From: a virus
IMG/VR virus record: IMGVR_UViG_3300007775_000011
Location: 1-60,165 of that record
Strand: one strand, 5' to 3'
DNA: 60,165 nt
Part shown: one piece after another, positions 45,760-60,121 of the stretch
Position numbering within the stretch: position 1 is the first letter of the stretch
Layout: every line of letters starts with the position of its first letter
Notes under the pieces: model-generated
What the model was told of the DNA's origin: nothing
Seen by the model: the letters and a program-made list of their open reading frames with translations, nothing else
Database searches by the model: none
Position numbers and translations under genes: made by a program

Positions 45760-45796
45760 TTTAACCGTACACGGTCGGCATAATACTCTGTTAAGT
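45760..45796 (+). other. short attC-like palindromic site (degenerate)
   Basis: TTTAAC at 45760-45765 and GTTAAGT at 45790-45796 (exact GTTRRRY) flank ACCGTACACGGT and CGGCATAATACTCT. The 3' part resembles the L'/R' end of integron attC sites. The TAA stop of the next gene lies in the GTTAAGT box. Confidence 0.35.
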
Positions 45797-46045
45797 AGCA
45801 CGTAGTTTTCTTTCTATCTCTTCCGCACTGTCCCGTTTAAAGTCAATCCATTGGTGGTTCTCACCATTGTTACACTGCATTTCACCATCATCACCATACA
45901 ATCCACTCTTTGAGCAACCGTGATTTAACCACAGCAATTCACGCAACTTCTTCTCGCTACTTAACAAGTCGCTTGAGTTCGACGGCAAACCCGCCGGTTT
46001 GGTTGCTCTTATCAATTCTCCAGTTGCTATTTCTGTTCCTGCCAT
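45791..46045 (-). CDS. cassette gene: hypothetical protein, 84 aa
   Basis: Not recognised. Contains two Cys (HGCSKSGLYGDDGEMQC), and a helical C-terminus (WIDFKRDSAEEIERKLRAT). Strong ribosome site AAGGAGG. Stop codon TAA is part of TAAC, as in most genes of this array. Confidence 0.6.
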   Translation of the reverse strand: MAGTEIATGELIRATKPAGLPSNSSDLLSSEKKLRELLWLNHGCSKSGLYGDDGEMQCNNGENHQWIDFKRDSAEEIERKLRAT

Positions 46046-46086
46046 TTCATTCCTCCTTAGTTGGGTTTCCGCGTCTCAACTTGGTG

Positions 46087-46341
46087 TTAAAAACCCTCTT
46101 CATAATTGCAATAGTCGCAGGTTGCCTTACAGTTTCTTGGCAATGCCAATGTTTTCTTGCCAGATAATCTCAAAGGGTATTCCCCACAATTAGGGCATAC
46201 CAAATAAGGCTCAACCGGCTTAGTGGTTGCAATAACACGGCTTTTAACAACCGCATCAACCGGACTCGCTACCTCTGGCTTGTCTGGGCAGTTATCACAT
46301 TTTCCGGGAATTTTTACGCAATCTTCACATTCTGTTTTCAT
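46087..46341 (-). CDS. cassette gene: cysteine-rich zinc protein
   Basis: The 84-residue product has CEDC, CDNC, CPNC and CDYC pairs, so up to two zinc ions. Ribosome site CAGGAG. Stop TAA within TAAC. Function unknown; zinc ribbons of this kind are common in phage accessory genes. Confidence 0.65.
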   Translation of the reverse strand: MKTECEDCVKIPGKCDNCPDKPEVASPVDAVVKSRVIATTKPVEPYLVCPNCGEYPLRLSGKKTLALPRNCKATCDYCNYEEGF

Positions 46342-46377
46342 TATCTGCTCTCCTGTTATGGCAACACGTTGGTGCGC

Positions 46378-46608
46378 TTAATAACATGGATATTCACAGG
46401 CGCTCACGCAGTCATCACACCACGGCACCCCGTTACGTGGTACTTTTGCCAATTCTTTCTTGCTAACAAAAACTCCGCATTCGTGGCATTTTTCACGCTT
46501 TTGCACAGAACCAGTAAATTCAGTGGATTCGCTAACCTTGGCGTTTTGGTGGCAGTTATAAGGCGACAAGGTGCATGTGTCGTCATAAATGCAGTCTATA
46601 CATTCCAT
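46378..46608 (-). CDS. cassette gene: cysteine-rich zinc protein
   Basis: From the ATG at 46608 (ribosome site AAAGGTGAG) the product is 76 residues with CIDC, C(x5)C, CHEC, CDDC and C(x3)C motifs. The frame extends to 46638 but lacks a ribosome site there. Similar in style, not clearly in sequence, to the neighbouring zinc protein. Confidence 0.65.
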   Translation of the reverse strand: MECIDCIYDDTCTLSPYNCHQNAKVSESTEFTGSVQKREKCHECGVFVSKKELAKVPRNGVPWCDDCVSACEYPCY

Positions 46609-46631
46609 TCGCTCACCTTTGATTATGGTCG

Positions 46632-46853
46632 TTAGCAAAACGTCATACCAAGTAAAAACTGGAGCCTGTTTTCTAATTTCTCCAAATGCTCACGAGGCAC
46701 AACGCACACTGGCGTTCCATTCTCTATCTCTGCTGCTTCCTGCCACTCCGACAGGTATTTATCAGGCATCCCGCCGTGATCCATGACTATCTTCCCACCT
46801 ATTATTCTTAGCTTGTCTGGGGCAGCATCCCCAAGCTTTCTTATATTTTTCAC
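46632..46853 (-). CDS. cassette gene: hypothetical protein, 73 aa
   Basis: Starts at GTG 46853 after AGGAGG, which itself lies directly next to the attC-like site at 46870-46957. Product: KNIRKLGDAAPDKLRIIGGK followed by a helical C-terminus. Stop TAA is inside TAACG. No recognised family. Confidence 0.6.
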   Translation of the reverse strand: MKNIRKLGDAAPDKLRIIGGKIVMDHGGMPDKYLSEWQEAAEIENGTPVCVVPREHLEKLENRLQFLLGMTFC

Positions 46854-46869
46854 GGCGTACCTCCTGTTT

Positions 46870-46957
46870 GCTAACCAGCGCATTAAATCGACTGGAATAA
46901 TCTTTGGTTATTAAAATCGGCCAGCCCATCGGCCAGCGGTTTATGCTAAACGTTAGC
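46870..46957 (+). other. attC-like recombination site 1
   Basis: GCTAAC (46870-46875) and GTTAGC (46952-46957) are the outer boxes; TAAATCGACTGG on the left pairs with CCAGCGGTTTA on the right with one extra A unpaired in the left (L'') arm, as in integron attC sites. The 3' end GCGGTTTATGCTAAACGTTAGC fits the attC consensus used for metagenomic cassette recovery. Nearly the same sequence recurs at 59406-59493. The upstream gene's TAA stop is in the GTTAGC box. Confidence 0.75.
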
Positions 46958-47222
46958 GGTCCATGAATGGGCCGACAATAGTAACGTCAATAGTCCCTAA
47001 ATTCCATCCCCTTCTGTGTCGTATGCGTCTGCCAGGGGAGTAAGACAAAATATACCAAAGGTTTTGCCGTTTGATCTCAATCTTGATGCCCCACTGCATC
47101 CAGTTCGGCATTGCCTGGTTTACGGATTTACGAAGCCGATGGAATCCGCTAACCAGGCGTTGCACTCTGACCCCATGGGGCGTGGGTTCTTTGGTTGTTT
47201 GTTTATTCGGTGTTTCCATCAT
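46953..47222 (-). CDS. cassette gene: hypothetical basic protein, 89 aa
   Basis: Start at 47222 (double ATG) after AAAGGAG. Product begins METPNKQTTKEPTPHG, then two beta-like segments with NLWYILSYSPGRRIRHRRG, ending GPFMDR; its TAA stop forms the attC-like site boundary. Function unknown. Confidence 0.6.
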   Translation of the reverse strand: MMETPNKQTTKEPTPHGVRVQRLVSGFHRLRKSVNQAMPNWMQWGIKIEIKRQNLWYILSYSPGRRIRHRRGWNLGTIDVTIVGPFMDR

Positions 47223-47268
47223 TTCAAATCTCCTTTGTTCACCCATGGGTCAGGTGAACTTAAACGCT

Positions 47269-47376
47269 CTATTTCCCGTCTAAATTATCCCATATATGGT
47301 CTAAAACCTTATTTCCAAGCTCTGTGTATCTAAGCCAGCCTCGCAATCCGCAGTCTCGCAAAGTCTTGTCTTTCAA
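47269..47376 (-). CDS. cassette gene: possible 35-aa protein with TTG start
   Basis: A TTG codon at 47376 preceded by AAAAGGAA opens a frame encoding KDKTLRDCGLRGWLRYTELG and 14 more residues. Composition is protein-like but the gene is short and the start weak. Confidence 0.35.
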   Translation of the reverse strand: MKDKTLRDCGLRGWLRYTELGNKVLDHIWDNLDGK

Positions 47377-47392
47377 AGTCTCAAATTCCTTT

Positions 47393-47430
47393 TGCTTGTT
47401 ATCCGGCTACCAGTTATGCCGGTCGTTATC
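47393..47430 (+). other. short attC-like palindrome (degenerate)
   Basis: CCGGC (47403-47407) pairs with GCCGG (47418-47422) and is followed by GTTATC (47425-47430), which contains the complement of the adjacent gene's TAA stop. Confidence 0.3.
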
Positions 47431-47629
47431 TTCGACAACCTTTCATGCCAATAACGACTTCAAATTTTTCATGGCAGTTTTCACATTCCACAGTAAAACA
47501 TCCATTGTGTTTCTTGGGCTTCTTGTATCTCGCCCACGTTTCACACTTTTTGCACTGTCTGGGCAATCCTTTCAAAAACCGTTCACATCCAGGCTGAGAA
47601 ATTTCATCAATAAAATCTAAATTTTCCAT
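47426..47629 (-). CDS. cassette gene: zinc-binding protein, 67 aa
   Basis: Product MENLDFIDEISQPGCERFLK followed by CKKCETWARY and CENCHEKFE: a four-Cys zinc ribbon. No good ribosome site; an in-frame ATG further upstream lies in the attC-like site at 47634-47717. Stop TAA is inside TAACG. Confidence 0.6.
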   Translation of the reverse strand: MENLDFIDEISQPGCERFLKGLPRQCKKCETWARYKKPKKHNGCFTVECENCHEKFEVVIGMKGCRR

Positions 47630-47633
47630 GTCA

Positions 47634-47717
47634 GATAACCATCGCATTAACGCAGACTGGAAGAAAGCTGGCGGCATTGGCTCGTTCAAGGCCCAGCAGC
47701 TCAACAAAAACGTTATA
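47634..47717 (+). other. attC-like recombination site 2
   Basis: GATAAC (47634-47639) and GTTATA (47712-47717) bound an imperfect palindrome. The left inner box GCATTAACGCAGACTGG resembles GCATTAAATCGACTGG of site 1; the right part includes CCCAGCAGCTCAAC. Between the zinc-protein gene and the tRNA-like unit. Confidence 0.55.
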
Positions 47718-47733
47718 TTGCTAAATAAAAATG

Positions 47734-47847
47734 TTGCCATGAAGGGAGTTGAACCCTCATCTGCCACCAGAAAAATCATACAGAATCGAACTGTATCAGC
47801 TTCCCCACCTTTCATGGGGAGGTGTCTGCCAATTTCACCACATGGCA
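47734..47847 (-). tRNA. tRNA-like sequence of unusual length (114 nt)
   Basis: Minus strand: acceptor strands TGCCATG and CATGGCA pair perfectly; TG at positions 8-9; D arm GTG-AAATTGGCAGA-CAC as in tRNA-Leu; T arm GAGGG-TTCAACT-CCCTT. In canonical register the anticodon loop is ATGAAAG (GAA), but its stem has a mismatch; an alternative CCCCA/TGGGG stem would displace U33. About 46 extra bases follow, including a second T-arm-like hairpin (TACAG-TTCGATT-CTGTA). It is the only content between two attC-like sites. Functional decoding is doubtful. Confidence 0.45.
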
Positions 47848-47848
47848 A

Positions 47849-47975
47849 CATAACAAAAAAATAAAGCGGATTGCTAAAACCGTGGCGGATTTAAGTTATT
47901 GGCTGTGGCGCTACATTTCGGTAACGTCCAAGTTTTATACTAGCAATCCGCAACAGCTTATTATAGGTTGTTATC
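47849..47975 (+). other. attC-like recombination site 3 (long)
   Basis: CATAAC (47849-47854) and GTTATC (47970-47975) flank an 11-bp perfect stem GCGGATTGCTA (47866-47876) / TAGCAATCCGC (47941-47951), extended by AAAC/GTTT after a short bulge. Length is similar to the long VCR-type attC sites of Vibrio. The RHH gene stop TAA is in the right box. Confidence 0.55.
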
Positions 47976-48147
47976 TTTCCCGTTCACGCATGGCATCCAA
48001 GGCCATGTTTATTAAGCGGGAAATTCCTTTACCTTTTTGCGCCCTGATCCACCTGTTATTAATCCGGCTTATCCTTGCGCCTATTCGTACATGGTCGGTT
48101 GTAGGGCCAACCTTTCGGCCAGCCCCTTTTCTTGCACCGCCTCTCAT
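47971..48147 (-). CDS. cassette gene: ribbon-helix-helix-like protein
   Basis: A 58-residue basic protein opening MRGGARKGAGRKVGPTTDHV, the GGARKGAGRK segment typical of small phage DNA-binding proteins, then RIGARISRINNRWIRAQKGKG and ISRLINMALDAM, compatible with an RHH fold. Start overlaps the preceding stop (ATGA), so it is coupled to 48144-48359. Stop TAA in TAAC. Confidence 0.6.
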   Translation of the reverse strand: MRGGARKGAGRKVGPTTDHVRIGARISRINNRWIRAQKGKGISRLINMALDAMRERER

Positions 48148-48359
48148 ATGTATTTACCTGTTACAGGAGATACAACATACAAACCGCTTTCACTGTGCAA
48201 ATCATCTTTGATGCTACATATCCCTTCAGCCTCCAAAGTCTCAAAGGCAGCAAATAACTGTTTCTGCCCGGTGTGTATATTAAAACATCTCCCGTTATCC
48301 ATAGCCAAAGAGTTACATATCATCCTCACTGCTTCTATTTGCGCTTGTGCCTTTTTCAT
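48144..48359 (-). CDS. cassette gene: hypothetical protein, 71 aa
   Basis: First gene after the array-1 leader. Ribosome site CGGAGG. Product is helical at the start (KKAQAQIEAVRMICNSLAM) with a C-terminal GLYVVSPVTGKYI strand. Coupled to the RHH-like gene through ATGA; the pair might act together but nothing shows a toxin-antitoxin relation. Confidence 0.6.
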   Translation of the reverse strand: MKKAQAQIEAVRMICNSLAMDNGRCFNIHTGQKQLFAAFETLEAEGICSIKDDLHSESGLYVVSPVTGKYI

Positions 48360-48373
48360 GGTGTATCCTCCGT

Positions 48374-48429
48374 TTGGCTTTATTGCCCTTTGTTAAATAC
48401 AGAATATCATCATTTTTGATTTTTGTCTA
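48374..48429 (-). promoter_or_regulatory. array 1 leader: promoter plus conserved 24-nt segment
   Basis: Minus strand: TAGACA (48424-48429), 17 bases, TATTCT (48401-48406), then a 24-nt segment (48374-48397) whose plus strand ends with GTTAAAT. The segment and its distance from the -10 box are the same in the array 2 leader. A promoter with adjacent recombination core, comparable in layout to an integron Pc/attI region, is inferred. Confidence 0.6.
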
Positions 48430-48464
48430 CCTTTTTTCAATAAATAATTAAAATAAAGTAAAAA

Positions 48465-48529
48465 GATAACAAATAAATTAACGACGACAGGAAACCTGCG
48501 GTTTATCAGCCCTCATTATTGCCGTTATA
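48465..48529 (+). other. attC-like recombination site 4
   Basis: GATAAC (48465-48470) and GTTATA (48524-48529) flank ATTAACGACGACAGG, which resembles the left inner box of sites 1 and 2, and CCTGCGGTTTATC, which resembles the right inner box of site 1. CAGG/CCTG pair across a three-base loop. Confidence 0.5.
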
Positions 48530-48532
48530 TTT

Positions 48533-48610
48533 TTAAGCTATTCCATCAATGTGGGTTATTGTTTCAACCCACCGGACAGGTATATCACCGGCCCATTCCT
48601 TGTCATTCAT
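48533..48610 (-). CDS. possible 25-aa protein coupled to the polymerase gene
   Basis: ATG overlaps the polymerase stop (ATGA) and encodes MNDKEWAGDIPVRWVETITH and five more residues. It ends six bases before a TAACG box. Sequence looks protein-like, perhaps a truncated copy of a larger gene. Confidence 0.4.
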   Translation of the reverse strand: MNDKEWAGDIPVRWVETITHIDGIA

Positions 48611-50055
48611 CGAATAAAATTATTTGAACAAATAGGACAAGTCCAAATATTTTTCTTTTTATTATGGTACATCCATTCATTTCCGCAATTACAAGGATGA
48701 AAATGAACTTCATCTTTTTCATACCAACTTTTTCCAGCTGGAGAAAATTCTGTTTCAGCGTCAAGTGGTACGATTAACCACGGCCATACTTCACGAATAT
48801 CATGGCACATTATTTTATCAGTAACTTTCATTACATGATTTATTTCAGAGGGCTCAAAATCAAAAACAATAGCATCATGAATCTGTCCTAAGATCTTTGT
48901 TTCCCATTTCTCTTCTATAGATATTTTTTGAATATGAATCAAAGACCAAAGAAGACAATGAAAAGCTGATCCCTGTACAGCATAATTGATAGCTTCATTC
49001 CGGGACATTACTCCCTGATATCTAAAACCTGTAAAACTATCAAAATATCCATTTTCTTGATAGGATTCTACATGATCATTTTTCCATTGATTATAAACTG
49101 GATAGCGGTCTTCCCAAAATTTTCTTTCAACTTTTTGTATATGCTTTTCAAATTTTTTATAGGATCGGATACCGTGTTTTGCTAAATGTTTTTTTAATGG
49201 AACCCCATCTGCTGTTTTAAGATTTAACTGTTCTATTCCTACCCAAAGAGCTTGGGCGCAATTAACATAATAATCACCGTAAAATTGAGGAAAGACAAAC
49301 TTATTTTTACCGCAATATCTTGCATCTTTTGTCCACTCATCCATTTCTAATTTATAGCATTCCATTGCCATATCTCGGTGCATATCTCTTTCCGGGTCGG
49401 TAATATCCTCTATCATAGTGGGATCACGATGATAACAAGCGGCAACTTTTACTTCTATGCCGCCATAATCTTTTTCCCCAAATACTCTTTTATCTGTTCT
49501 TGGTAAAAAAGCTTTTCTTACCATACTTTTTACCCAAGGGATTCTAACCGGGATATTTTGGAAATTAATATTAGATGATGATGAACGAAAAGTGACTACA
49601 GTATGTAAATTAAAAAATGGGTAAAGAAAACCATCAACCTGTTCTCTGAGTATTCCTCCAAGATAGGTACCTTGGATTTTTTCCATTTTTCTTCTTTCTA
49701 ATAATAAATTAAGCCATTCCATATTAAGAGCTTGTAAACTTTCTTCATCAGTGGAACCTTGATCACCGCCAGTTTGTTTTTTTGCTTTTAATTTTAAATG
49801 ATCATAAAGAAGTTCGGATAATTGTTCATTGGAATTATATTTGAATTTACTGCCATATAACTCTTTCCATTTCTGTACTTCTTTATACTCACTTAATTTG
49901 ATTTCAGCTTTTTTGATTTTTTTTGTTAATCTTCGATCTTGTAAATGGCAATGATCTAAATCAATTTTCATTCCATTCAACTGGATCTGAGAAAGAGCCA
50001 ATGCCCCTTCATGAAGCAGCTGATATCCTTTGATGTCAACAGGAGTTATTTGCAT
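48607..50055 (-). CDS. DNA polymerase I-type polymerase domain
   Basis: Replicative polymerase. The 482-residue protein has FRSSSSNINFQNIPVR, motif A in KDYGGIEVKVAA (about residue 198), motif B region KFVFPQFYGDYYVNCAQALW (about 255), and motif C QIHDAIVFDF (about 408). A C-terminal zinc ribbon (CNCGNEW ... CPICSN) is added. The exonuclease domain is the separate upstream gene; the start overlaps its stop by 10 bases, so the pair is a split SPO1-like polymerase. Confidence 0.9.
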   Translation of the reverse strand: MQITPVDIKGYQLLHEGALALSQIQLNGMKIDLDHCHLQDRRLTKKIKKAEIKLSEYKEVQKWKELYGSKFKYNSNEQLSELLYDHLKLKAKKQTGGDQGSTDEESLQALNMEWLNLLLERRKMEKIQGTYLGGILREQVDGFLYPFFNLHTVVTFRSSSSNINFQNIPVRIPWVKSMVRKAFLPRTDKRVFGEKDYGGIEVKVAACYHRDPTMIEDITDPERDMHRDMAMECYKLEMDEWTKDARYCGKNKFVFPQFYGDYYVNCAQALWVGIEQLNLKTADGVPLKKHLAKHGIRSYKKFEKHIQKVERKFWEDRYPVYNQWKNDHVESYQENGYFDSFTGFRYQGVMSRNEAINYAVQGSAFHCLLWSLIHIQKISIEEKWETKILGQIHDAIVFDFEPSEINHVMKVTDKIMCHDIREVWPWLIVPLDAETEFSPAGKSWYEKDEVHFHPCNCGNEWMYHNKKKNIWTCPICSNNFIR

Positions 50056-51281
50056 ATATCAATTCCCAATTTTTTACGTTTTTCCCATTGAACTTCAGCC
50101 AACCGATATTCCAATAAAGAATCCAGAGCATTTCTTTTTAGAACATCTTTCATATTAGCTTCATAAATTCTATTAAAAGAATTAGCGTGCTTTTCCGTCC
50201 CTTTTAAAAATTCCCCGGTTGCGTCTTTAAAATCCATTATTCCAAAATTAACAATACTTTGAAATTCAAGATCATTACACCCACGGCGATTATCTAATGT
50301 ATGAGATCCATACATTGTATCCCATAACCAACCTTCTGGGATTATATTCATAATATGTCTAGTCCACATATCTTCAAATTTCATGTGATGGGCTATTTTT
50401 TTAATATTTGGATTTTTAAGAATCCGGCCCCAAATCCTTTCAACATTTATATCATCAAAAGGAAAGGCAAAAGCATTATCCCTATCAGTTGCTATACTTA
50501 AAGTGACAATATGGTGTCCTTTTGCAATAGGACGTAGACCAGTTGTTTCATAATCAAAAGCAATAGGATTTATAAACCCTCTATTTATTTCTTCCAATTT
50601 GGGCAGTATTTGTTTAGGAGATGTTAAAATTTCAATACAACTTTCAGGGTCTTTCCATTCCGGGAAATCATCTTGGTAATGATCAATAGCATTTTTGAGA
50701 TCCATCTCAAATATAGTTTCAATAACCTGATTCCCGTGCGCGGCTTTTTTTACATAAGCTGGGTGGTACATTGGGAATATCCAACATTTATGATCTTGGT
50801 CAGGTATTTGCCAACCCCTCCAAGAATAAATCCCGGTACCCACAGAAACACGATGGCCGAAACAACTATCAATAGCGATATTACCCAATAAAAATATGGC
50901 CTTTGGTTTGTATTTTTTAATGACTTTTAAAATCCGGTTTCGACAAGCTTGGATTTCTTTTGGTTTTGGATTTCTACTATCAGGTGGGTGACAATTAACG
51001 CTATTGATTTTTATACAATCTCTATCTATATCAATCTTGTTTCTTTTTAATAATCTGCGGAGATATAGACCTGGTTTACCAACTAATTGTTTTCCAAGTT
51101 TATCTTCTTTTTCTCCCGGAGCCTCAGCCCAGATTAATATTTCTTTTTTACCTTCTCCGTGAGGTTTCATTTTCGGAGATTTACAAGACCGATATAGACC
51201 GCAGGAGGCGCATCCAATAGTTTTACCGGATGCCCCCCTGTTTATTCCAACAATTTCGTCTTTACTAAAAAAGCCGGACAT
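50046..51281 (-). CDS. uracil-DNA glycosylase-like domain fused to 3'-5' exonuclease
   Basis: Proofreading half of the polymerase. Residues 1 to about 200: family 4-like UDG with Fe-S type cysteines (GCASCGLYRSC) and WAEAPGEKEDKLGKQLVGKPG; residues about 240-400: DEDD exonuclease with FDYETTGLRP, AHHMKFEDMW and ALDSLLEYRL. In SPO1-type phages UDG, exonuclease and polymerase are on one chain; here polymerase is separate. The glycosylase site may be structural rather than active. Confidence 0.85.
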   Translation of the reverse strand: MSGFFSKDEIVGINRGASGKTIGCASCGLYRSCKSPKMKPHGEGKKEILIWAEAPGEKEDKLGKQLVGKPGLYLRRLLKRNKIDIDRDCIKINSVNCHPPDSRNPKPKEIQACRNRILKVIKKYKPKAIFLLGNIAIDSCFGHRVSVGTGIYSWRGWQIPDQDHKCWIFPMYHPAYVKKAAHGNQVIETIFEMDLKNAIDHYQDDFPEWKDPESCIEILTSPKQILPKLEEINRGFINPIAFDYETTGLRPIAKGHHIVTLSIATDRDNAFAFPFDDINVERIWGRILKNPNIKKIAHHMKFEDMWTRHIMNIIPEGWLWDTMYGSHTLDNRRGCNDLEFQSIVNFGIMDFKDATGEFLKGTEKHANSFNRIYEANMKDVLKRNALDSLLEYRLAEVQWEKRKKLGIDICK

Positions 51282-52297
51282 CAGTTTTCCTTTGCCATAG
51301 CTACAACGTGTTTGAAGTTATCCTTTTCAAATAATATTGATTTATCTCCAATAATCGCAGTACGAAACATTTTAAGAATTTGGATAAAATTTGAAGGGTT
51401 AATTTTAAAAGTACATTCCCCGGCTTTGGATTTCATTTTAAGGGACTTTTTAAACCACCCATTATCCCCTTTCCCTTCCACTGTTAACTTTTTCTTGTTA
51501 ACAGAAACTATCAATGAATTATTATCTGCCATAATAGTTGCATTATTTATAGCAGATATCAAATCTTTGGGAAATTCAATTTCATCTCCATCTACTTTAA
51601 AAAAACTGGAAATATCTGGATATTTCCCATCGTGCGTTCTACAGCTAAAAATGGTGCCTAAGCGGTTTTTAAAATGGGCCCATCCTTCGGTATGGGAAAT
51701 CTTTACAGGCTTATAAGAAGCTAAATGACGAGCTGAGGAAGCTGGTAAAAGATACCCTTCACTATCAGCTCCTGTTTCTGTGTCCCAAATAGTAGCACGG
51801 GAATTATCACAAGATTGAATAAAATCAGGCTTTACATATAAACATGTAAAAATTGGTTGGGAAGCATCGCCGGAAGCAGAGAAAATACAACTGTTTATAG
51901 CGGTAATAAAATTATCAGGATTAGGGATTTTCTTAAACTTTTTGGGTTGTGACATTTCTTCGATAGGCAAACGAATTTCTTGTTCAAGTCTGATCCCGGC
52001 TTCCCCATCCGATTCTGTAGAGATAGTTAATTCAGAATTATCAATTTCCAGTTCAATTTCTTCGCAAGAAAAACTTTTTAAAATACTGAAAAACTCTCTT
52101 GCTTGAACTGCTGCCTTCATATCTAAAGAACCATCCCCAACAAGTGGGTGTTGTATGGCTATTTCATCATTAAAAGTCATAGCCATATCTTCATTAAATA
52201 CAAAACAGGAAGCTTGCTCAACAAGACTATTTTCAGAAGCAATCCCCGGCTGAAGTATTTGTAAAATATCCAATAATTCTTTTCTATTAATTTTCAT
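51281..52297 (-). CDS. sliding clamp (DnaN-like)
   Basis: Processivity ring. The 338-residue protein (start at 52297 after AAGGAGAAGGAG) has three repeated clamp domains, with DAVA-like regions replaced by SGDASQPIFTCLYV, RLGTIFSCRTHDGKYPDISSFF at the usual domain 2/3 link, and a C-terminal FRTAIIGDKSILFEKDNFKHVVAMAKEN. Bacterial clamps are near 366 residues. Partners: loader at 44306-45274 and polymerase next door. Confidence 0.85.
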   Translation of the reverse strand: MKINRKELLDILQILQPGIASENSLVEQASCFVFNEDMAMTFNDEIAIQHPLVGDGSLDMKAAVQAREFFSILKSFSCEEIELEIDNSELTISTESDGEAGIRLEQEIRLPIEEMSQPKKFKKIPNPDNFITAINSCIFSASGDASQPIFTCLYVKPDFIQSCDNSRATIWDTETGADSEGYLLPASSARHLASYKPVKISHTEGWAHFKNRLGTIFSCRTHDGKYPDISSFFKVDGDEIEFPKDLISAINNATIMADNNSLIVSVNKKKLTVEGKGDNGWFKKSLKMKSKAGECTFKINPSNFIQILKMFRTAIIGDKSILFEKDNFKHVVAMAKEN

Positions 52298-53365: not shown

Positions 53366-53589
53366 AATGTTATTTTTTCAAGTTTTATTTTAGAGGGTTT
53401 TCTTGATTGAGGAGTAAAATCTAATTCTTGTATCATTTCGGCTTGTCCCTTACTTAAAAAAGTAAGAGCCTCAGAACGTTGTCCCCAAGTCCATTTACCA
53501 TCTTTAACAGTGAGGAATTTTTTCCAGTTTCTTTTTTTAGATTTAGGTATAGAAACGATTAAGAATATTTCTATTTCCATTTGATTCAT
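53362..53589 (-). CDS. hypothetical protein, 75 aa
   Basis: Not recognised. Contains IFLIVSIPKSKKRNWKKFLT and WTWGQRSEALTFLSKGQAEM. No ribosome site beyond GGGGGATG. Coupled to the previous gene. Confidence 0.5.
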   Translation of the reverse strand: MNQMEIEIFLIVSIPKSKKRNWKKFLTVKDGKWTWGQRSEALTFLSKGQAEMIQELDFTPQSRKPSKIKLEKITL

Positions 53590-53628
53590 CCCCCGGTTTT
53601 GGTTTAATTACTTATTTTCAACTTTTAG

Positions 53629-53685
53629 GGATTGGAGGGGGAATTGAACCCCCCAACAGCGTCCTACCCTTTCCTAAGCCCAATA
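53629..53685 (-). tRNA. tRNA-like remnant lacking the anticodon arm
   Basis: Minus strand: TATTGGG and TCCAATC form six acceptor pairs (one mismatch); a D-arm-like CTTAGGAAAGGGTAGGACG follows, then directly a perfect T arm GGGGG-TTCAATT-CCCCC. Total 57 nt, so no room for an anticodon arm. Probably a decayed tRNA or a mimic of the tRNA acceptor/T domain. Confidence 0.4.
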
Positions 53686-53712
53686 CATAAAAACCAAAAA
53701 TAAATAATTAAT

Positions 53713-53753
53713 AAAGGGGTGGGACTAGAATGGGAGAGCCAGCCCCACCCCTT
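53713..53753 (-). terminator. strong hairpin terminator
   Basis: AAAGGGGTGGG at 53713-53723 pairs with CCCACCCCTTT at 53743-53753. On the minus strand the stem is followed by an A/T-rich TATTAATTATTTATTTTT. Ends the block led by 54309 and precedes the tRNA-like remnant. Confidence 0.7.
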
Positions 53754-53825
53754 TAAAGTCCTACATAAAGGCGTAATTTTATAAAATATTATAAATTATT
53801 GTTTTAATCTAATCCATAAACAAAC

Positions 53826-53872
53826 CACCTCCTTCTTCCGGGCCAACTATCCGGGATCGGCTACTTGGTTTA
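53826..53872 (-). promoter_or_regulatory. hairpin region with a ribosome-site-like AAGGAGGTGG and no clear gene
   Basis: Minus strand: AAACCA and TGGTTT arms enclose a CCGG/CCGG stem and AAGGAGG. Downstream reading frames are only a few codons long. Could be a decayed gene start or part of a small RNA ending at the terminator 53713-53753. Confidence 0.35.
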
Positions 53873-53876
53873 TTAA

Positions 53877-54125
53877 TTAGTATTTCCTTATTTTATTTTT
53901 GGGATCGAAAGCTTTGGCAAAAAAAGCTTTTAATTCACCATATCCATTACCAAATATTTTATCCCAAAACTGAGAATAATAATATATATTTCCATCATCT
54001 TCCTCCCAAGACAAAATTCCTTTTAAATCTCCATCTTTACAAATTTTAAATTCAATTTTAGAACAGGAGGCATTGTGTTGTTTAAGTGTATTTTTTAAAA
54101 GCTTTTCAATCTTTTTTAAATTCAT
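53877..54125 (-). CDS. hypothetical protein, 82 aa
   Basis: Start at 54125 after GGGAGAAAG. Product: NLKKIEKLLKNTLKQHNASC, then a DxDGxLKGxLSWEEDDG segment. Not recognised. Overlaps the upstream gene by 20 bases. Confidence 0.55.
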   Translation of the reverse strand: MNLKKIEKLLKNTLKQHNASCSKIEFKICKDGDLKGILSWEEDDGNIYYYSQFWDKIFGNGYGELKAFFAKAFDPKNKIRKY

Positions 54126-54309
54126 TTTCTTTCTCCCTTTCTTTTTGTTCTTGGACAAATTTTGTAAAGAAAGATTTTTCAATAGCTTCAAATTCATCAG
54201 AAGTTAAATTAATATTGCGTTTAAAAAATAACCCTTCCCGGTCTTTAAAATCCAATTGAATAGTTCTGCGATCATTTTTATATACTGTAGGAAGTTTAGC
54301 AATAATCAT
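54106..54309 (-). CDS. hypothetical protein, 67 aa
   Basis: Not recognised. A small alpha/beta protein (LPTVYKNDRRTIQLDFKDREG, then helical with a Lys/Glu tail). Starts one base after the glycosyltransferase stop. Confidence 0.5.
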   Translation of the reverse strand: MIIAKLPTVYKNDRRTIQLDFKDREGLFFKRNINLTSDEFEAIEKSFFTKFVQEQKEREKENEFKKD

Positions 54310-54310
54310 A

Positions 54311-55456
54311 TTATTTTCTTTTGATAAGTTTCATTCCATATTCATCATTGCTTTTTATTGGGGTAATATCAGGTTTTAAAATTGGTTTATTACGTTTAAA
54401 TTTTGAATAATCAACTTGATGGTGCCAACGATTAAATTTAAAAACTATATCAACAACATCAGGATGTTGTTTTTGGAGACTTTTAGCAAATGATTTTCGA
54501 TAATCATTTGTATTGTATACATTATCTGTATTTCCACCTTTTAAGGCTCCTTTAGTTTTTCCACCGTCAAATGTTTTTCCTTTATTCATTAAAAGGACAT
54601 AGAATAATAAAGTACAATATCCATCTTTTAATAATCTGAGACTGAGATCAGTATCTTCATTATATCTTCCCCGCCATCTATGCGGCAGATCAGTCTTTAA
54701 AAGAATACAAGAATAAATTCTGGAATTGAATAAATAAGGAGGGTGATTGGGAGATCGGTCACGGACGAAACCTTGATCATGTGGTCCGGCCATTACTATA
54801 TTTTCATATCTGTCAACAAAATCTTCCATAGCCCGAAAGAAACCACCCCCGGTCACTTTTAATCTTCGGTTATGATTACACCTTGTAAATGTAGTTATAT
54901 TGTCATCAACAGTCCAATGACGTTTAAATCCTCTTTTTTTACACCATTCCCATATATAATTTCGTGCCGGCACTGATCCTCTTCCAAGATCATGAAAAGG
55001 CATAACAACTACTTTATTTTTTCCAAGGTGTTTTATATATTCTTCAGCTTCGGTTTCTTCAACAAAAAATTTATAAGAAACCCCAAGTTGATCCAGTAGT
55101 TTTCCTGTAGTTTGGACATCGGCCCTTCCTTTACTCGGTATACAAACTGGATATTTAGAATCTTCAGGTGGGCCCGTATATTCAAATTTATTTTTTTCAA
55201 GTGGTTTTTGTCCAGGGTACCACGCAGAATCAGTTCTTTTATTAATTCTAATTCCTAATTTTTCGGCAAATTCTTTTACATCTTCTTCAGTCATAAAATT
55301 CATAACTATTCTGCGTTGTGGAGATGCATCTTTCATAACAAATTCAGGCATTCCCCACCACATATCTTTCCAATGTGGCTCGAATAATCCAAAATCAATA
55401 GATTCTTTTTCACGGGTAGGTCGATTTTCGTTTAATTCTTTTTCAAAATTATCCAT
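54311..55456 (-). CDS. TET-associated-type DNA glycosyltransferase (TAGT/GREB1-like)
   Basis: Likely adds sugar to hydroxymethylated bases in phage DNA. The 381-residue protein has YPVCIPSKGRADVQTTGKLL (about residue 100), GRGSVPARNYIWEW, and RHWTVDDNITTF, which match the IPSKGR, ARN and W-x-x-DDN/DDDI motifs of TAGT enzymes, plus RYNEDTDLSLRLLKDGY as the acidic catalytic region. The N-terminal 95 residues form a separate domain. No TET/JBP or hydroxymethylase gene was seen in the window. Confidence 0.7.
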   Translation of the reverse strand: MDNFEKELNENRPTREKESIDFGLFEPHWKDMWWGMPEFVMKDASPQRRIVMNFMTEEDVKEFAEKLGIRINKRTDSAWYPGQKPLEKNKFEYTGPPEDSKYPVCIPSKGRADVQTTGKLLDQLGVSYKFFVEETEAEEYIKHLGKNKVVVMPFHDLGRGSVPARNYIWEWCKKRGFKRHWTVDDNITTFTRCNHNRRLKVTGGGFFRAMEDFVDRYENIVMAGPHDQGFVRDRSPNHPPYLFNSRIYSCILLKTDLPHRWRGRYNEDTDLSLRLLKDGYCTLLFYVLLMNKGKTFDGGKTKGALKGGNTDNVYNTNDYRKSFAKSLQKQHPDVVDIVFKFNRWHHQVDYSKFKRNKPILKPDITPIKSNDEYGMKLIKRK

Positions 55457-55468
55457 ATTAATACCTGT

Positions 55469-55536
55469 TTTAATTATTTTTATTTTTTAAATAAACAACT
55501 TGTTTCGACTCTATTTAAAAAATAAAAATAATTAAA
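55469..55536. repeat. 25-bp perfect inverted repeat
   Basis: Arms at 55469-55493 and 55512-55536 are exact reverse complements (AT-only, beginning TTTAATTATTTTTATTTTTT), loop 18 nt. It lies 12 bases before the glycosyltransferase ATG. It could be an operator, cruciform, terminator or recombination site. Confidence 0.9.
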
Positions 55537-55547
55537 GGGGCGAGTAC

Positions 55548-55583
55548 TAAAAAGTTTTAAATCCCTCTTAAATTTAAAAACAA
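55548..55583 (-). repeat. dispersed intergenic element, copy 4 (minus strand)
   Basis: The complement matches 36 bases of copy 1 from CTTG to TTTTTA without mismatch. Here it directly follows the hairpin 55584-55611, so its TTGTTTTT would serve as a U-tract. Confidence 0.8.
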
Positions 55584-55611
55584 GGGGGATATACCGTTTG
55601 ATATATCCCCC
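55584..55611 (-). terminator. hairpin terminator after the Lys-rich protein gene
   Basis: GGGGGATATA (55584-55593) pairs with TATATCCCCC (55602-55611) with an 8-base loop. On the minus strand it is followed by TTGTTTTT, giving a typical Rho-independent terminator. Confidence 0.8.
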
Positions 55612-55630
55612 ATTTCGATCCGGGTATATA

Positions 55631-56179
55631 TTATTTCCCGGATGCCTGTTTTCTCAGAACGGCATAGATGGCGTTGCCGATAACACGGTATGACTTTTCA
55701 GGGAATTTTTCCTTAACTTCAAGAACAACATCATCTTCGTGTCTGTCCCCAAGACCGTCTTTCAGGGTTTCCTGCAGAAAAGTTGCCATCCCTTCTTTCT
55801 TTTTGCCGGCACCTTTCTTTTTGGAACCGGATTTTTTAGCCTTGCTCTTATCTTTCGGAGCGGCCTTTTTTTCTTCTTCCTCTTTGGCCCCTTCTTCATT
55901 GACCTTGGGACCAATTTCAAGTTCTTCAAAAAGAGCCCAGGTTTCATCGGTCAGCGGATCACTTTCAGCAACATCAGCGTCTGCGATTTCGATAATTTCC
56001 GCTTTCAGTTCTTCGATGTCGGAATCGGTATCAAGAGGTGGTTCAAGACCGATAACATCATTCAGATCTTCGGCGGCGGCGATCAGGCGTTTATCCATAC
56101 TGGGGCCTTTTTTCTTGGCCGGGGCTTTTTTCTTGCCGGTGGTATTTTTCGTTGTTTTTCCTGTTGCTTTCTTTGCCAT
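55631..56179 (-). CDS. Lys-rich histone-H1-like DNA-binding protein
   Basis: The 182-residue protein has a Lys/Ala/Thr-rich N-terminus (KKATGKTTKNTTGKKKAPAK), an acidic middle, a second Lys-rich run (about residues 108-130) and a folded C-terminal part with LKDGLGDRHEDDVVLEVKEK. It may condense DNA or remodel the host nucleoid. Codons are less AT-rich than in neighbours; strong ribosome site and terminator suggest high expression. Confidence 0.6.
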   Translation of the reverse strand: MAKKATGKTTKNTTGKKKAPAKKKGPSMDKRLIAAAEDLNDVIGLEPPLDTDSDIEELKAEIIEIADADVAESDPLTDETWALFEELEIGPKVNEEGAKEEEEKKAAPKDKSKAKKSGSKKKGAGKKKEGMATFLQETLKDGLGDRHEDDVVLEVKEKFPEKSYRVIGNAIYAVLRKQASGK

Positions 56180-56312
56180 GGTAATTCTCCTTTGTTTTGG
56201 TTTGTTTATGGCTTTTGGTTAAGTACTGTATTGATCTTGTAAAACATCATATTCTATTTTTAACACTAAGTAAAGAAAAAAAAGAGATAAAAAAGAAAAA
56301 AATTAATTTTTA

Positions 56313-57860
56313 TTAAAAATAGCTTCCCAAATAAGGTCTGCCGGTTTCTAAAGATTGCAAAACTTTAATCTCCAAAGATTGATCAAATTCACCTTCCCTA
56401 CCCAATAAAGGTGACATTCTCATTATTTTATCTTTCTTTTCTTTTGCTGTTTGGTTTAAAGCATAAGCAGCAGTCACGTGATCCCACTTTCTTCCGGATT
56501 CACTAAAGTTTTTAGTTCTTAATTTTCTTGTTTCTAATCCATCTGAATCTGCCTGGGTAGCGGTAATGAAACATAAATTATATTTTAAACTGATTTGCCG
56601 CACTGCTTTCCAAACCTCATTAATTTTATGTCTCATATCAATTCGATTATCAGACCATTCAAGTAAATCAATATAATCCAAAACCAATACTTTCGGAATC
56701 CATCCTCTATTTGCCCATATTTCTAAAATAGATATTAATTCATTAATTCTCAAAGAAGGTCGGGCAACTACACGAAAATCATTAGACCCGGAAAATTTGC
56801 TCATCCATTTCAATCCAGCTCTATAGCCTTCACGCCAAGTCAAAGGTTCCACCTTTTCTCTGATTTTATACCAGACTGCTCCTTTAAATTTTTGAGGATT
56901 CCTTTTTAAACAATATGTACAGGGGACATATCCTAATTCGGTTGCATCTTCAAATGAAATTTTCGCAGGCGGTTCATCTTCTTTTTCCGGCTCTTCATAT
57001 AGTCCAAAATCGCAAGTTCTTTTTTTTATACTACAAGAATCGGTTTGATTATGAAGACAATCTATTATTGGTATTTTAATTTCACCACAATATCTTTGGT
57101 CATAGCTTTTTTGGCATAATCTTACATGAAGTCTTCTGACCTGCTGTTCCTCACTTAAATCTCCGATTTGAAATAAGGCAACTCTATTACGAAAACGATG
57201 AGCCCGGAAAGCTAACTCATCAAGCCACCACGTTTTACCTCTTTTTGCCGGGGCTAAAAAAGAAATGAAAGTTCCTTCTGAAAATTGATTATTAAAAAGA
57301 ACGTCTAAAGCTCCTGGATATGTGAAAAGAGGGTCTTGGAACGTCTCAAAAGCAGTTCTGATTTTATCAGCATTAGTAAAAGGATTGAAACCCAAATCTT
57401 CATGAAGTTCTATAGATCGGTAATTTTCAAGAACTTCTTGTGCATGTAACGGCTCATCATCATGTAAAGCTTGGCTGGCTTCTCTAATTGTTATTTTTAT
57501 TCTTCTTTCGTCTAGATAAGCTCTTGATTGTTTTAAATAATATTCAAAGTCATATTCTTTTTCTTTTTCATATTGGTTACTCAAAGAATCCATAAGATCA
57601 GCCATATCATCGGCCAAATCTTCATCAATATCATCTTTTCTTACTTTTTGATCATATATCTCTTGGAGTAGTTTCCCCGGAGCTTTCCCAAATTCTTCAT
57701 GGTATTCTAAAATCCAATTACATAATAATTTACTTACATCAGCTTGGAATAAATCAAGATTTAATTCAGGATATATGGACTTCAGAAAGGGGGTGCTAAT
57801 AGCCAACCCAATTAATAAATTCCTTTCTGAAGAAACTTTTATTTTTCTTTTGCGTATCAT
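56313..57860 (-). CDS. DnaB-like replicative helicase with inserted Cys cluster
   Basis: Unwinds DNA at the fork. The 515-residue protein has an N-terminal helical domain, a RecA core with FLAPAKRGKTWWL in place of Walker A (about residue 203), Walker B KVLVLDYIDLLEW (about 392) and FITATQADSDG (about 425). Between strands it has an insert of about 70 residues with Cys residues (C, C, C, then CTYCLK) that may bind zinc. Works with the primase at 12-923. No strong ribosome site was seen. Confidence 0.8.
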   Translation of the reverse strand: MIRKRKIKVSSERNLLIGLAISTPFLKSIYPELNLDLFQADVSKLLCNWILEYHEEFGKAPGKLLQEIYDQKVRKDDIDEDLADDMADLMDSLSNQYEKEKEYDFEYYLKQSRAYLDERRIKITIREASQALHDDEPLHAQEVLENYRSIELHEDLGFNPFTNADKIRTAFETFQDPLFTYPGALDVLFNNQFSEGTFISFLAPAKRGKTWWLDELAFRAHRFRNRVALFQIGDLSEEQQVRRLHVRLCQKSYDQRYCGEIKIPIIDCLHNQTDSCSIKKRTCDFGLYEEPEKEDEPPAKISFEDATELGYVPCTYCLKRNPQKFKGAVWYKIREKVEPLTWREGYRAGLKWMSKFSGSNDFRVVARPSLRINELISILEIWANRGWIPKVLVLDYIDLLEWSDNRIDMRHKINEVWKAVRQISLKYNLCFITATQADSDGLETRKLRTKNFSESGRKWDHVTAAYALNQTAKEKKDKIMRMSPLLGREGEFDQSLEIKVLQSLETGRPYLGSYF

Positions 57861-57861
57861 A

Positions 57862-57934
57862 GAACGGTACCAATCAGATGCAAGAGTTTATGCCGCGCAT
57901 TCATTGGCGCGGTCTGGTTATAATCGGCGTTATA
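57862..57934 (+). other. attC-like site at the helicase start (degenerate)
   Basis: CCGCGC and GCGCGG pair across an 8-base loop (within 57893-57913) and the right end reads TAATCGGCGTTATA, as in other sites of the two arrays. It could alternatively be a terminator for array 2 or a leader for the helicase gene. Confidence 0.35.
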
Positions 57935-57937
57935 TTG

Positions 57938-58153
57938 CTAGTTATTGAAAACTATCAATTCCACCGGCACATTACGCACAGACCCATCGGGCATCTCTAC
58001 AACCGCAGTAGTAAAGTTCCCCGGGCCATTCTCAAACTCTTCATAGTTAACCCCAAACTGGTGAAACACCCCATTTCCTACAGCAACCTTATCAAAGTGT
58101 GTTTGGCCCTTTACCCTTTGCCACTCATAAACAACAACTTTCCTAGTTTCCAT
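57938..58153 (-). CDS. cassette gene: small beta-strand protein, 71 aa
   Basis: Product TRKVVVYEWQRVKGQTHFDK ... GNFTTAVVEMPDGSVRNVPV resembles small phage or cassette proteins of a single beta sheet. Ribosome site GGGGGG. Stop TAG, 9 bases before a TAACG box. Confidence 0.55.
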   Translation of the reverse strand: METRKVVVYEWQRVKGQTHFDKVAVGNGVFHQFGVNYEEFENGPGNFTTAVVEMPDGSVRNVPVELIVFNN

Positions 58154-58168
58154 ATATTAGCCCCCCAA

Positions 58169-58260
58169 GATAACAATTAAATTCACGCAGACGGCGCGAA
58201 CGTGGGCGGCACTATCCGTGTATTTCTTCGGTGGTGCCGCTGATGATTATGTGCGTTATG
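58169..58260 (+). other. attC-like recombination site 5
   Basis: GATAAC (58169-58174) and GTTATG (58255-58260) are the outer boxes. Left inner box TTCACGCAGACGGC and right inner box GCCGCTGATGATT resemble attC L boxes; GCGGCAC (58206-58212) pairs with GTGCCGC (58234-58240). The next gene's TAA stop lies in the right box. Confidence 0.55.
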
Positions 58261-58480
58261 CGTACGAATAACTTGATCCGAACTCTTCTTTATATCCACA
58301 CGAACAAACACCAAACTTGTCTACTCTGTATATCTCTCCAAATGGGCCACTGTCTAATGTTTTTCTACCAAATATTTTTACTTTATGTCCCAAGTATTGA
58401 GCGTGATAGTCGAGTGTACTCATAACACCACGGTTAACTTGACAAGAAGAGGCTTGTGTCTTTTTTGTTGTTTCTTTCAT
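58256..58480 (-). CDS. cassette gene: hypothetical protein with CxC motif
   Basis: The 74-residue product has GHKVKIFGRKTLDSGPFGEI and VCSCGYKEEFGSS. The N-terminal 20 residues overlap an attC-like palindrome (58432-58506), so MSTLDYH is an alternative start. Stop TAA in TAACG. Confidence 0.55.
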   Translation of the reverse strand: MKETTKKTQASSCQVNRGVMSTLDYHAQYLGHKVKIFGRKTLDSGPFGEIYRVDKFGVCSCGYKEEFGSSYSYA

Positions 58481-58506
58481 GGCTTACAAGTTACCTCCAC
58501 GTTATG
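58432..58506 (+). other. attC-like palindrome overlapping a gene start (degenerate)
   Basis: GGTTAACTTG (58432-58441) pairs with CAAGTTACC (58487-58495) with a one-base bulge; GTTATG at 58501-58506 ends the site and carries the next gene's stop. Confidence 0.35.
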
Positions 58507-58831
58507 TTCTCAACTTGCGACGGTATTCATCCATCCCAATACGTCGCAAATTTGAGTAATCATTGTCAAGCAAAGCCCATGCGAAGAAAACACCGTAGGT
58601 AATCATGGCAACGGTACGCAAATACTCCCCCGGGCCAATTACTAGCCAACAAACAACCACTAATATTATAGACGGCAAACCGAACAGCAAACAGAATCGG
58701 GTGATATCGTTGTACCAAAACCAAATCCAAAAAGAATCATAACCAGTCGCTTCACTTGACCCCAAGGGGTCGGCGTTCTGCGCTTTGTCAAATCCTGTTT
58801 CTGGGTCTAAATCAAACGGGCTATTATTCAT
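58502..58831 (-). CDS. cassette gene: two-helix membrane protein
   Basis: Start at 58831 after GGGGAGGAC. The 109-residue product has two hydrophobic segments (FCLLFGLPSIILVVVCWLVI and TVAMITYGVFFAWALL) with cytoplasmic acidic N-terminus. Stop TAA in TAACG. Function unknown. Confidence 0.6.
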   Translation of the reverse strand: MNNSPFDLDPETGFDKAQNADPLGSSEATGYDSFWIWFWYNDITRFCLLFGLPSIILVVVCWLVIGPGEYLRTVAMITYGVFFAWALLDNDYSNLRRIGMDEYRRKLRT

Positions 58832-58865
58832 TTTGTCCTCCCCTTGGGTCAAGTGACCTCAATCG

Positions 58866-59123
58866 TTATCTTGCCGACCATGTTAAAAAGCTTTTATATG
58901 CCATCCCAGCCCAAAACATATACAACGGAAGCCATGTTTTATTTTCAACTGCTGCTCCTATAAAATAGGCAGGCATCCAAACAGTAGCACAAACAAAAAA
59001 GGCTATTAGCATCCTCCACTTCTTGACAAAGATAACCAGTCGCTTAACAGCTGACCGCAAGAACTGGTGCGGTTTTTGTTCCTCTTCTGCTATCGTTACC
59101 GTCTGTTCATGGTCGTATTTCAT
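58866..59123 (-). CDS. cassette gene: two-helix membrane protein
   Basis: The 85-residue product has a charged N-terminus and two hydrophobic segments (LIAFFVCATVWMPAYFIGA and PLYMFWAGMAYKSFL). Ribosome site AAGGAG. Similar in size and topology to the next gene downstream; the two may work together. Stop TAA in TAACG. Confidence 0.6.
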   Translation of the reverse strand: MKYDHEQTVTIAEEEQKPHQFLRSAVKRLVIFVKKWRMLIAFFVCATVWMPAYFIGAAVENKTWLPLYMFWAGMAYKSFLTWSAR

Positions 59124-59151
59124 TGGTTTCTCCTTCTTGCGGCAGGTTAGC
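59043..59151 (+). other. attC-like palindrome overlapping a gene start (degenerate)
   Basis: CTTAAC (59043-59048) and GTTAGC (59146-59151) flank a perfect 9-bp stem CCGCAAGAA (59055-59063) / TTCTTGCGG (59134-59142). It spans the start of the gene at 59123. Confidence 0.4.
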
Positions 59152-59180
59152 TTATTAAAACGGTGGGTTGCTCAAGTATC

Positions 59181-59387
59181 TTAAGTAATGGCTCCGTTTA
59201 CATCTATGTTTGTAACGTCAGCAAGAACTCCCTCAAGCCATCTAATATTGTCATGCCATGCCTCAGTAAAAGTTATTTTTCCGGTATCAATATCTTCCTG
59301 GTGCATAAACTCAAATCCACAGATGTTTTCATACTTCTGCATGCACTGACGCTGTTTACTGTTTATTTTCTTTGCGTATACAGCCAT
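59181..59387 (-). CDS. cassette gene: hypothetical protein, 68 aa
   Basis: Start at 59387 (AVYAKKINSKQRQ) chosen from ribosome site AAGGAGG next to the attC-like site. The product is a helical, Trp/His-containing protein (TFTEAWHDNIRWLEGVLADV). Not recognised. Confidence 0.55.
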   Translation of the reverse strand: MAVYAKKINSKQRQCMQKYENICGFEFMHQEDIDTGKITFTEAWHDNIRWLEGVLADVTNIDVNGAIT

Positions 59388-59405
59388 TCGCATACCTCCT
59401 TGCAA

Positions 59406-59493
59406 CCCAACCAGCGCATTAAAGCCGACTGGAATAAAGTTTGTTTATTAAAATCTGCCAGCACGGGGCCAGCGGTTTATGCTTAACGTTAGT
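59406..59493 (+). other. attC-like recombination site 6 (near-duplicate of site 1)
   Basis: CCCAAC (59406-59411) and GTTAGT (59488-59493) bound the site. Left inner box TTAAAGCCGACTGG and right inner box CCAGCGGTTTATG pair with one extra A in the left arm. Most bases agree with 46870-46957, including the central TTATTAAAATC segment, though the sites lie in separate arrays. Confidence 0.75.
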
Positions 59494-59497
59494 TTAC

Positions 59498-59635
59498 TTA
59501 GTGCGTATTAACCACACTCTTGATATCTATACTATGCAATCTACTTTCCTTTAGTGCCAAATTAATAGCCTCGAAAAATTCCATCATCATTTTGCTTTCC
59601 CATACTTCACCATTATAAAAAGTAACTTTCCACAT
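59498..59635 (-). CDS. cassette gene: hypothetical protein, 45 aa
   Basis: Product MWKVTFYNGEVWESKMMMEF followed by a helix (FEAINLALKESRLHSIDIKS). Ribosome site GAGGTAA. Stop TAA, five bases before the CTAACG box of the attC-like site. Confidence 0.6.
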   Translation of the reverse strand: MWKVTFYNGEVWESKMMMEFFEAINLALKESRLHSIDIKSVVNTH

Positions 59636-59728
59636 AAATTTACCTCGTAAACTAATAATAAAATTAATCTGACTAGAAGAAGTTTGGGTTGCAAGCGCAG
59701 TCTGGTGGCTGGAAGCTTATTATCGGCG

Positions 59729-59893
59729 TTATCTTTCAGTAGCTTCAACCTTGCAGCCCTTTAAGACTATTCGGAAAAGGTCTGGCTTATTCTTTGCCCA
59801 GTTCCCCAAGGTCTGCAAGCTCTGTCCGGTCAACCGTGCAACCACAGAGAGGCTTTTCAGTCCCTCCGCTTTTGCCTGTTGTGATGGGGTCAT
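59729..59893 (-). CDS. cassette gene: small helix-turn-helix-like protein
   Basis: Product MTPSQQAKAEGLKSLSVVAR then LTGQSLQTLGNWAKNKPDLF: a DNA-binding-like helix-turn-helix. It partly overlaps the upstream gene's end (ATGACT and ATGACC are alternative starts). Stop TAA in TAACG; the flanking site at about 59640-59733 ends GGCGTTATC. Confidence 0.6.
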   Translation of the reverse strand: MTPSQQAKAEGLKSLSVVARLTGQSLQTLGNWAKNKPDLFRIVLKGCKVEATER

Positions 59894-59894
59894 T

Positions 59895-60068
59895 TTAGTC
59901 ATCTTCTCCGGCAACATACTCTCCGTCCATGTCATAGATAGCAACGCTTCCAGTATGGTCACAATTGTTGTCAAACTGGGTTATAGCAAAATCAAGAGCT
60001 TCTTCTGCTGTCTCGCATCCTGTGATTGTCATTGAGCTGTTTCCGCATATTGCTTTATATTCTTTCAT
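59895..60068 (-). CDS. cassette gene: hypothetical protein, 57 aa
   Basis: First gene after the array 2 leader, ribosome site AAGGAGAAG. Product MKEYKAICGNSSMTITGCET ... GSVAIYDMDGEYVAGEDD, a small two-layer alpha/beta protein. Overlaps or abuts the HTH-like gene start. Confidence 0.6.
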   Translation of the reverse strand: MKEYKAICGNSSMTITGCETAEEALDFAITQFDNNCDHTGSVAIYDMDGEYVAGEDD

Positions 60069-60088
60069 TGTTCTTCTCCTTAGTTTGG

Positions 60089-60121
60089 TTGGCTTTATTG
60101 CCCTTTGTTAAACATAGAATA
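60089..60121 (-). promoter_or_regulatory. array 2 leader: -10-like box plus conserved 24-nt segment
   Basis: The 24-nt segment at 60089-60112 is the same as 48374-48397, and TATTCT (complement of 60116-60121) lies at the same distance as in array 1. The plus strand of the segment ends GTTAAAC, an exact GTTRRRY core. No good -35 hexamer is seen before the window ends. Confidence 0.6.

Follow-up and report, generated by a model that had tools for sequence, protein, structure and literature searches.

We analysed the IMG/VR virus record IMGVR_UViG_3300007775_000011, a linear record of 60,165 bases that was taken whole (hereafter the window), and two blocks of small genes within it. The blocks are probably clusters of integron cassettes without an integrase (CALINs), carried in the replication region of a lytic-type phage, with cassettes that an integron integrase would have assembled and may still exchange. 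Judged from sequence, array 1 is well supported as such a cluster, and array 2 is weaker, supported mainly by its likeness to array 1. A preliminary description of this DNA had proposed two arrays of integron-type attC sites and cassettes in a phage genome, and our analysis supports that proposal. Its suggestion that a phage would be a new vehicle for cassettes does not stand, as Qi et al. 2023 (PMC9892861) already describe CALINs in virulent phages (TJE1, P12002L and the Pseudoalteromonas phage PH101/H101) and the recombination of phage attC sites by IntI1.

The sites of array 1 span 45759-48530, and those of array 2 run from 57859 to the window end at 60165, where the array is cut by the record end. 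Both are rows of small minus-strand genes, most of them preceded by ribosome sites, and both are less AT-rich than their surroundings (G+C 43.6% in array 1 and 41.8% in array 2, versus 36.8% elsewhere), as first described. The TAAC/GTTA outer boxes that had been seen between the genes are borne out by the stop codons, which a TAAC overlaps in 10 of 14 array genes and, outside the arrays, in 2 of 71 (p = 2e-8, Fisher test). The tyrosine recombinase domain (PF00589) has no match anywhere in the record, which may be incomplete at its ends; this agrees with the earlier statement that no integrase is in sight. With at least two nearby attC sites and no integrase, the blocks fall within the definition of a CALIN and, lacking intI, outside that of a complete integron.

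Two tests carry the case for attC sites. The first is an outside covariance model, built from 22 aligned attC sites whose known arrays come from Vibrio and Shewanella phages, from a Pseudomonas plasmid and from a P1 phage, with their canonical boxes and extrahelical base. Run over both strands of the whole window at E<=10, it gave three matches only, S7, S0 and S6; each lies in array 1, on the plus strand, and the matches to S7 and S0 had the same ends as those drawn by hand. Switching the filters off added S1 (20.7 bits) and S4 (8.4 bits). In array 2 the model reached 7.2-7.5 bits at T6, T1 and T5, on the plus strand, none of them individually significant, so that the attC identity proposed earlier for both blocks was upheld by this search in array 1 and met with weak matches only in array 2. 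The 9 kb between the arrays held a single match of 22 nt (11.4 bits) and no site-sized one above 6 bits, and the model had no match at E<=2 in 791 kb from 65 other phage loci and none in 17 whole related virus records. A reciprocal model, R2, was built from ten window sites of both arrays, its scores on its own training sites not being counted. In 327 kb of other DNA at E<=2 it gave four matches, all of them known attC sites on the correct strand (one in Pseudoalteromonas phage H101, one in Shewanella phage M16-3 and two in a Vibrio array). The sites are as follows:

45759-45796, plus strand: short site S8 (38 nt), forming the left boundary of array 1; g8 stop with TAAC, and GTTAAAG; low score on both strands
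45959-46092, plus strand: attC S7 (g8 cassette); outside model 21.9 bits, E 0.0028 (whole window); TTAACAAGTCGCTTGAG close to the Shewanella phage M16-3 site
46242-46376, plus strand: attC-like S6 (g7 cassette), one outer box degenerate; 13.8 bits, match starting at 46242; own-box GTTAAAA
46530-46637, plus strand: attC-like S5 (g6 cassette), poor inner boxes; CGCTAAC and GTTAGCA outer boxes, inner pairing unconvincing
46869-46958, plus strand: attC S4 (g5 cassette); 8.4 bits; GCATTAAA/TTTATGC with one extra T
47147-47431, plus strand: attC-like S3 (g4 cassette), oversized or composite; CGCTAAC and GTTATCT outer boxes; 285 nt
47633-47718, plus strand: attC-like S2 (g3 cassette); 5' half AGATAACCATCGCATTAAC alignable with other sites
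47848-47976, plus strand: attC S1 (tRNA-like cassette); 20.7 bits, filters off
48464-48530, plus strand: attC S0 (promoter cassette), right boundary of array 1; 16.2 bits, E 0.086 (window)
57859-57937, plus strand: site T7, left boundary of array 2, ending at the helicase start; 3' end CGGCGTTATATTG, 5' end degenerate
58168-58261, plus strand: attC T6 (h8 cassette); 7.5 bits; orientation score 19.0 vs -4.0
58420-58507, plus strand: attC T5 (h7 cassette); GGTTAACTTG/CAAGTTACC, with an additional T, both spacers 5 nt
58737-58871, plus strand: attC-like T4 (h6 cassette); long stem, folding z -3.5; orientation score 15.9 vs -0.7
59030-59178, plus strand: attC-like T3 (h5 cassette), 3' box degenerate; model R2 (not trained on T3) 17.7 bits, E 0.32
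59405-59494, plus strand: attC T2 (h4 cassette); inner boxes same as in S4
59650-59734, plus strand: attC-like T1 (h3 cassette); 7.3 bits; canonical 3' end GGCGTTATCT

The second test concerns how cassettes are built: an integron cassette opens with bases that match the outer box belonging to its own attC. We set the outer box by rule, taking the first AAC from the stop codon onward, and sought its partner at the start of each unit. The arrays scored 47.6, where the null mean was 3.5, and not one of 20,000 permutations did as well; the matching is weaker in the phage arrays than in intact integrons. RYYYAAC and GTTRRRY outer boxes are present in most sites (they are degenerate in S6, T1, T3 and T7), and the complementarity of the inner boxes, also part of the preliminary description, averaged 5.64 versus 2.88 when the site interiors were shuffled (sd 0.45; maximum 3.82 of 100 shuffles). 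Similar sites recur beside different genes, as in sedentary chromosomal integrons of the Vibrio superintegron type: S4 of array 1 and T2 of array 2 are 96% alike over 26 nt and 89% over 37 nt and adjoin different genes, and one half of T6 is 85% like S0, again with different genes carried.

A reading with no integron link, in which the blocks would be phage operons of small genes with intergenic hairpins for transcript processing or translational control, is very unlikely in our view. It would account for the genes' resemblance to phage accessory genes, for the hairpin folding energies, most of which are not significant, and for the weak enrichment found on the minus strand by a naive scan for AAC/GTT plus inner boxes. 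The reciprocal recognition with known attC sites, the own-box matching and an extra base placed as in known sites all speak against it.

Several points weigh against our reading of the blocks as CALINs. Six sites (S3, S5, S6, S8, T3 and T7) are poor, the weak scores of array 2 are as given above, and the test of the inner-box extra base described below left out the four worst sites. An unguided own-box chain search detects real intact integrons and misses both arrays, which implies that their boxes are degenerate (worn). No integrase and no host were found, and no attI-like site was noticed, with no formal attI search made. No cassette-level indel was seen among the relatives, which all lack arrays, and near relatives with single-cassette gain or loss were not found. 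The promoter-like sequence that would drive array 1 is a consensus match only, and such matches are not enriched over shuffles. It should be noted that the outside model finds no site in the published CALIN phages TJE1 and P12002L, so it is biased to gammaproteobacterial sites.

The arrays may have decayed: once captured as cassettes, they would now be ordinary, vertically inherited phage operons with sites too degenerate to recombine. We regard this as a serious possibility, toward which we do not quite lean. The degenerate outer boxes, the several poor sites, the lack of an integrase and the lack of observed cassette-level variation are all as it would predict, and it is compatible with everything in the CALIN explanation except present mobility; against it, T5, S4, T2 and S7 keep their outer boxes, paired inner boxes and extra base intact.

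The orientation of the genes in the arrays is unusual. The genes and the other sequence carried in the cassettes are:

45791-46045, minus strand: gene g8, start inside S7, stop at the cassette boundary; AGGAGG ribosome site
46087-46341, minus strand: gene g7, Cys-rich, start inside S6
46378-46608, minus strand: gene g6, Cys-rich, start inside S5
46632-46853, minus strand: gene g5, GTG start just before S4; AGGAGG ribosome site
46953-47222, minus strand: gene g4, start inside S3
47426-47629, minus strand: gene g3, start 4 nt before S2
47739-47851, minus strand: tRNA-like (tRNA-Leu-like) sequence with two T-arm-like hairpins, as read from sequence, in a cassette without a clear gene
47971-48359, minus strand: overlapping genes g2 (47971-48147) and g1 (48144-48359), in the promoter cassette
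57938-58153, minus strand: gene h8, phage family phrog_11000, E 3e-15
58256-58480, minus strand: gene h7, start inside T5
58502-58831, minus strand: gene h6, apparent membrane protein (hydrophobic stretches read from sequence), start inside T4
58866-59123, minus strand: gene h5, apparent membrane protein (hydrophobic stretches likewise), start inside T3
59181-59387, minus strand: gene h4, start just before T2
59498-59635, minus strand: gene h3, phage family phrog_29556, E 6e-5
59729-59893, minus strand: gene h2, related to small phage proteins, phrog_409 (regulator) E 5e-4; 72% identical to a Pseudoalteromonas phage protein
59895-60068, minus strand: gene h1, first of array 2; AGGAG ribosome site

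The minus-strand genes are real: h2, h3 and h8 belong to phage families. Most plus-strand open frames inside cassettes are short, and the longest four, of 77-119 codons, extend into or through attC or across a leader. A Pfam search gave no match above cut-offs. The tRNA-like sequence at 47739-47851 was not recognised by ARAGORN and matched Rfam only at chance level.

The general assumption is that a cassette gene shares the orientation of its attC and is expressed from the integron promoter, and the preliminary description had implied as much; here the sites are oriented along the plus strand and the genes run the other way. With site ends picked regardless of strand, position weights from the reference sites favoured the plus strand at 14 of the 15 sites (p = 0.0003, Wilcoxon test). 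On that strand the 5' inner box holds the extra base in 10 of the 11 sites used for the inner-box test (the four worst left out), as it does in 21 of 22 reference sites. On this reading each gene lies whole within one cassette, one gene per cassette and two in the promoter cassette, and the gene is antisense to the attC in 13 of the 13 gene-bearing cassettes and sense in none. The genes start inside their own attC (seven genes), just before it (five) or, in the promoter cassette, 105 nt before it. The distance between stop and cassette boundary is 1 nt in 9 of the 13 gene-bearing cassettes and 8-10 nt in the other 4. The ACID annotation rules limit the overlap of cassette gene and attC to 15 bases (PMC2674596), a limit that seven array genes exceed.

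An alternative is that these are sense cassettes of the classical kind, lying on the minus strand, whose sites provide the ribosome site, start codon and N-terminus, so that recombination would exchange N-termini; we consider it extremely unlikely. It draws on the minus-strand ATG between the site halves in seven genes. Read on the minus strand, however, the sites have that ATG within them and the extra base in the wrong arm; the plus strand scores better at 14 of the 15 sites, it bears the model matches of at least 8 bits at sites, and on it the sites are canonical and the genes undivided. The swapping of N-termini between genes by the sites was dropped after these orientation tests (site scores, extra base and gene layout).

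Each row opens with a leader, and the two leaders share 24 identical nt:

48374-48429, minus strand: array 1 leader with promoter-like sequence, TAGACA, 17 nt, TATTCT, then TTTAACAAAGGGCAATAAAGCCAA; consensus match only
60089-60124, minus strand: array 2 leader, 92% identical to the array 1 leader over 36 nt

Chance promoter matches are common, so it is the duplicated position that suggests a promoter. The leader had no match in viral contigs, and the two matches listed for it in genome contigs were unrelated and attributable to chance. With a promoter-like sequence in the terminal cassette, the row would read backwards relative to its attC sites. The phage would express each row as an operon from the shared leader; given such a leader-driven operon, a cassette would be useful to it only if its gene ran against the attC. 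An integron integrase, supplied by the host or by a co-infecting element, would fold one strand of a site and cut between G and TT, between complete cassettes, and in this way may have assembled the rows and may exchange their cassettes still; movement by a host integrase is what we infer.

A further step would be a distinct class of phage-kept cassettes that are read backwards, with an antisense gene, its ribosome site and start codon within or next to the attC, a stop at the recombination boundary and a promoter cassette at the far end. They would belong to an integron lineage adapted to phages, in which accessory genes are exchanged via host integrases. We consider such a class possible but rather doubtful.

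Array 1 lies between a DNA polymerase gene (48607-50055) and a clamp loader gene (44306-45274), and array 2 upstream of a helicase gene (ATG at 57860). Synteny with the relative L016 (40-70% protein identity) makes the two ends of the window neighbours, an unknown piece being missing between them. Twelve relatives found by their polymerase (41-49% identical) have about 20-570 nt at the place of array 1, or another insert; in the relative L003 a pair of ParB-like and PAPS-reductase-like genes (5977-8434) sits there, which makes this place a variable slot. L016, 57-70% identical for several replication genes, has ordinary genes at both array places. No attC was found in the syntenic relatives examined, and none of the relatives encodes the cassette proteins. 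The duplicated attC motif had no match in viral contigs, and a comparison of the arrays with phage and plasmid DNA returned nothing relevant. Since the relatives lack arrays, the arrays would most simply be gains in this phage lineage.

As cargo, the arrays are of a known kind, in a vehicle already published, with a reversed layout that is unusual. Like the CALINs of virulent phages (PMC9892861), they are attC clusters with small genes in a lytic-type phage without an integrase; they differ in that one genome holds two arrays, about 14 cassettes and a shared leader, and in that all genes are antisense and start in or near the attC, antisense genes not being described in the consulted parts of that paper. 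In H101, the outside model finds four attC, all on the strand opposite the annotated genes; its cassettes, unlike those here, also hold sense frames. In the H101 CALIN (L088, 25919-27987), two cassettes have a common leader and attC and different genes. The integron/CALIN of Shewanella phage M16-3 (MZ568829) likewise has small genes, and an attC very close to S7 (AACAAGTCGCT), but it has an integrase and its annotated array genes are sense to the attC. Promoter-bearing cassettes, some with antisense promoters, exist in sedentary chromosomal integrons (PMC11014356). A literature search of incomplete coverage found no description of an all-antisense array.

The rest of the record is that of a tailed phage, with genes for a terminase, portal, tape measure, polymerase, helicase and glucosyltransferase. 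The DNA polymerase is split into two minus-strand genes (48607-50055 and 50046-51281) covering successive parts of phrog_17, a split kept in relatives such as L016; in L003, the polymerase gene carries an in-frame insert (2984-4092) resembling an intein with a homing endonuclease. Outside the arrays, a perfect inverted repeat of 25 nt, its arms 18 nt apart, lies at 55469-55536. The portal protein (10815-12983) is apparently fused to a minor head protein domain and directly preceded by a lipase-like gene (9577-10797), and a related phage contig, L035, has three glucosyltransferase-like gene copies close together (9219-13144).

The layout bears on which genes could pass between phages and bacterial integrons. 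An antisense cassette would be silent cargo in a bacterial integron unless it brought its own promoter, and a phage with two antisense rows would draw on a separate cassette pool. An attC on the strand opposite the genes would, moreover, be a simple search criterion for phage-adapted arrays.

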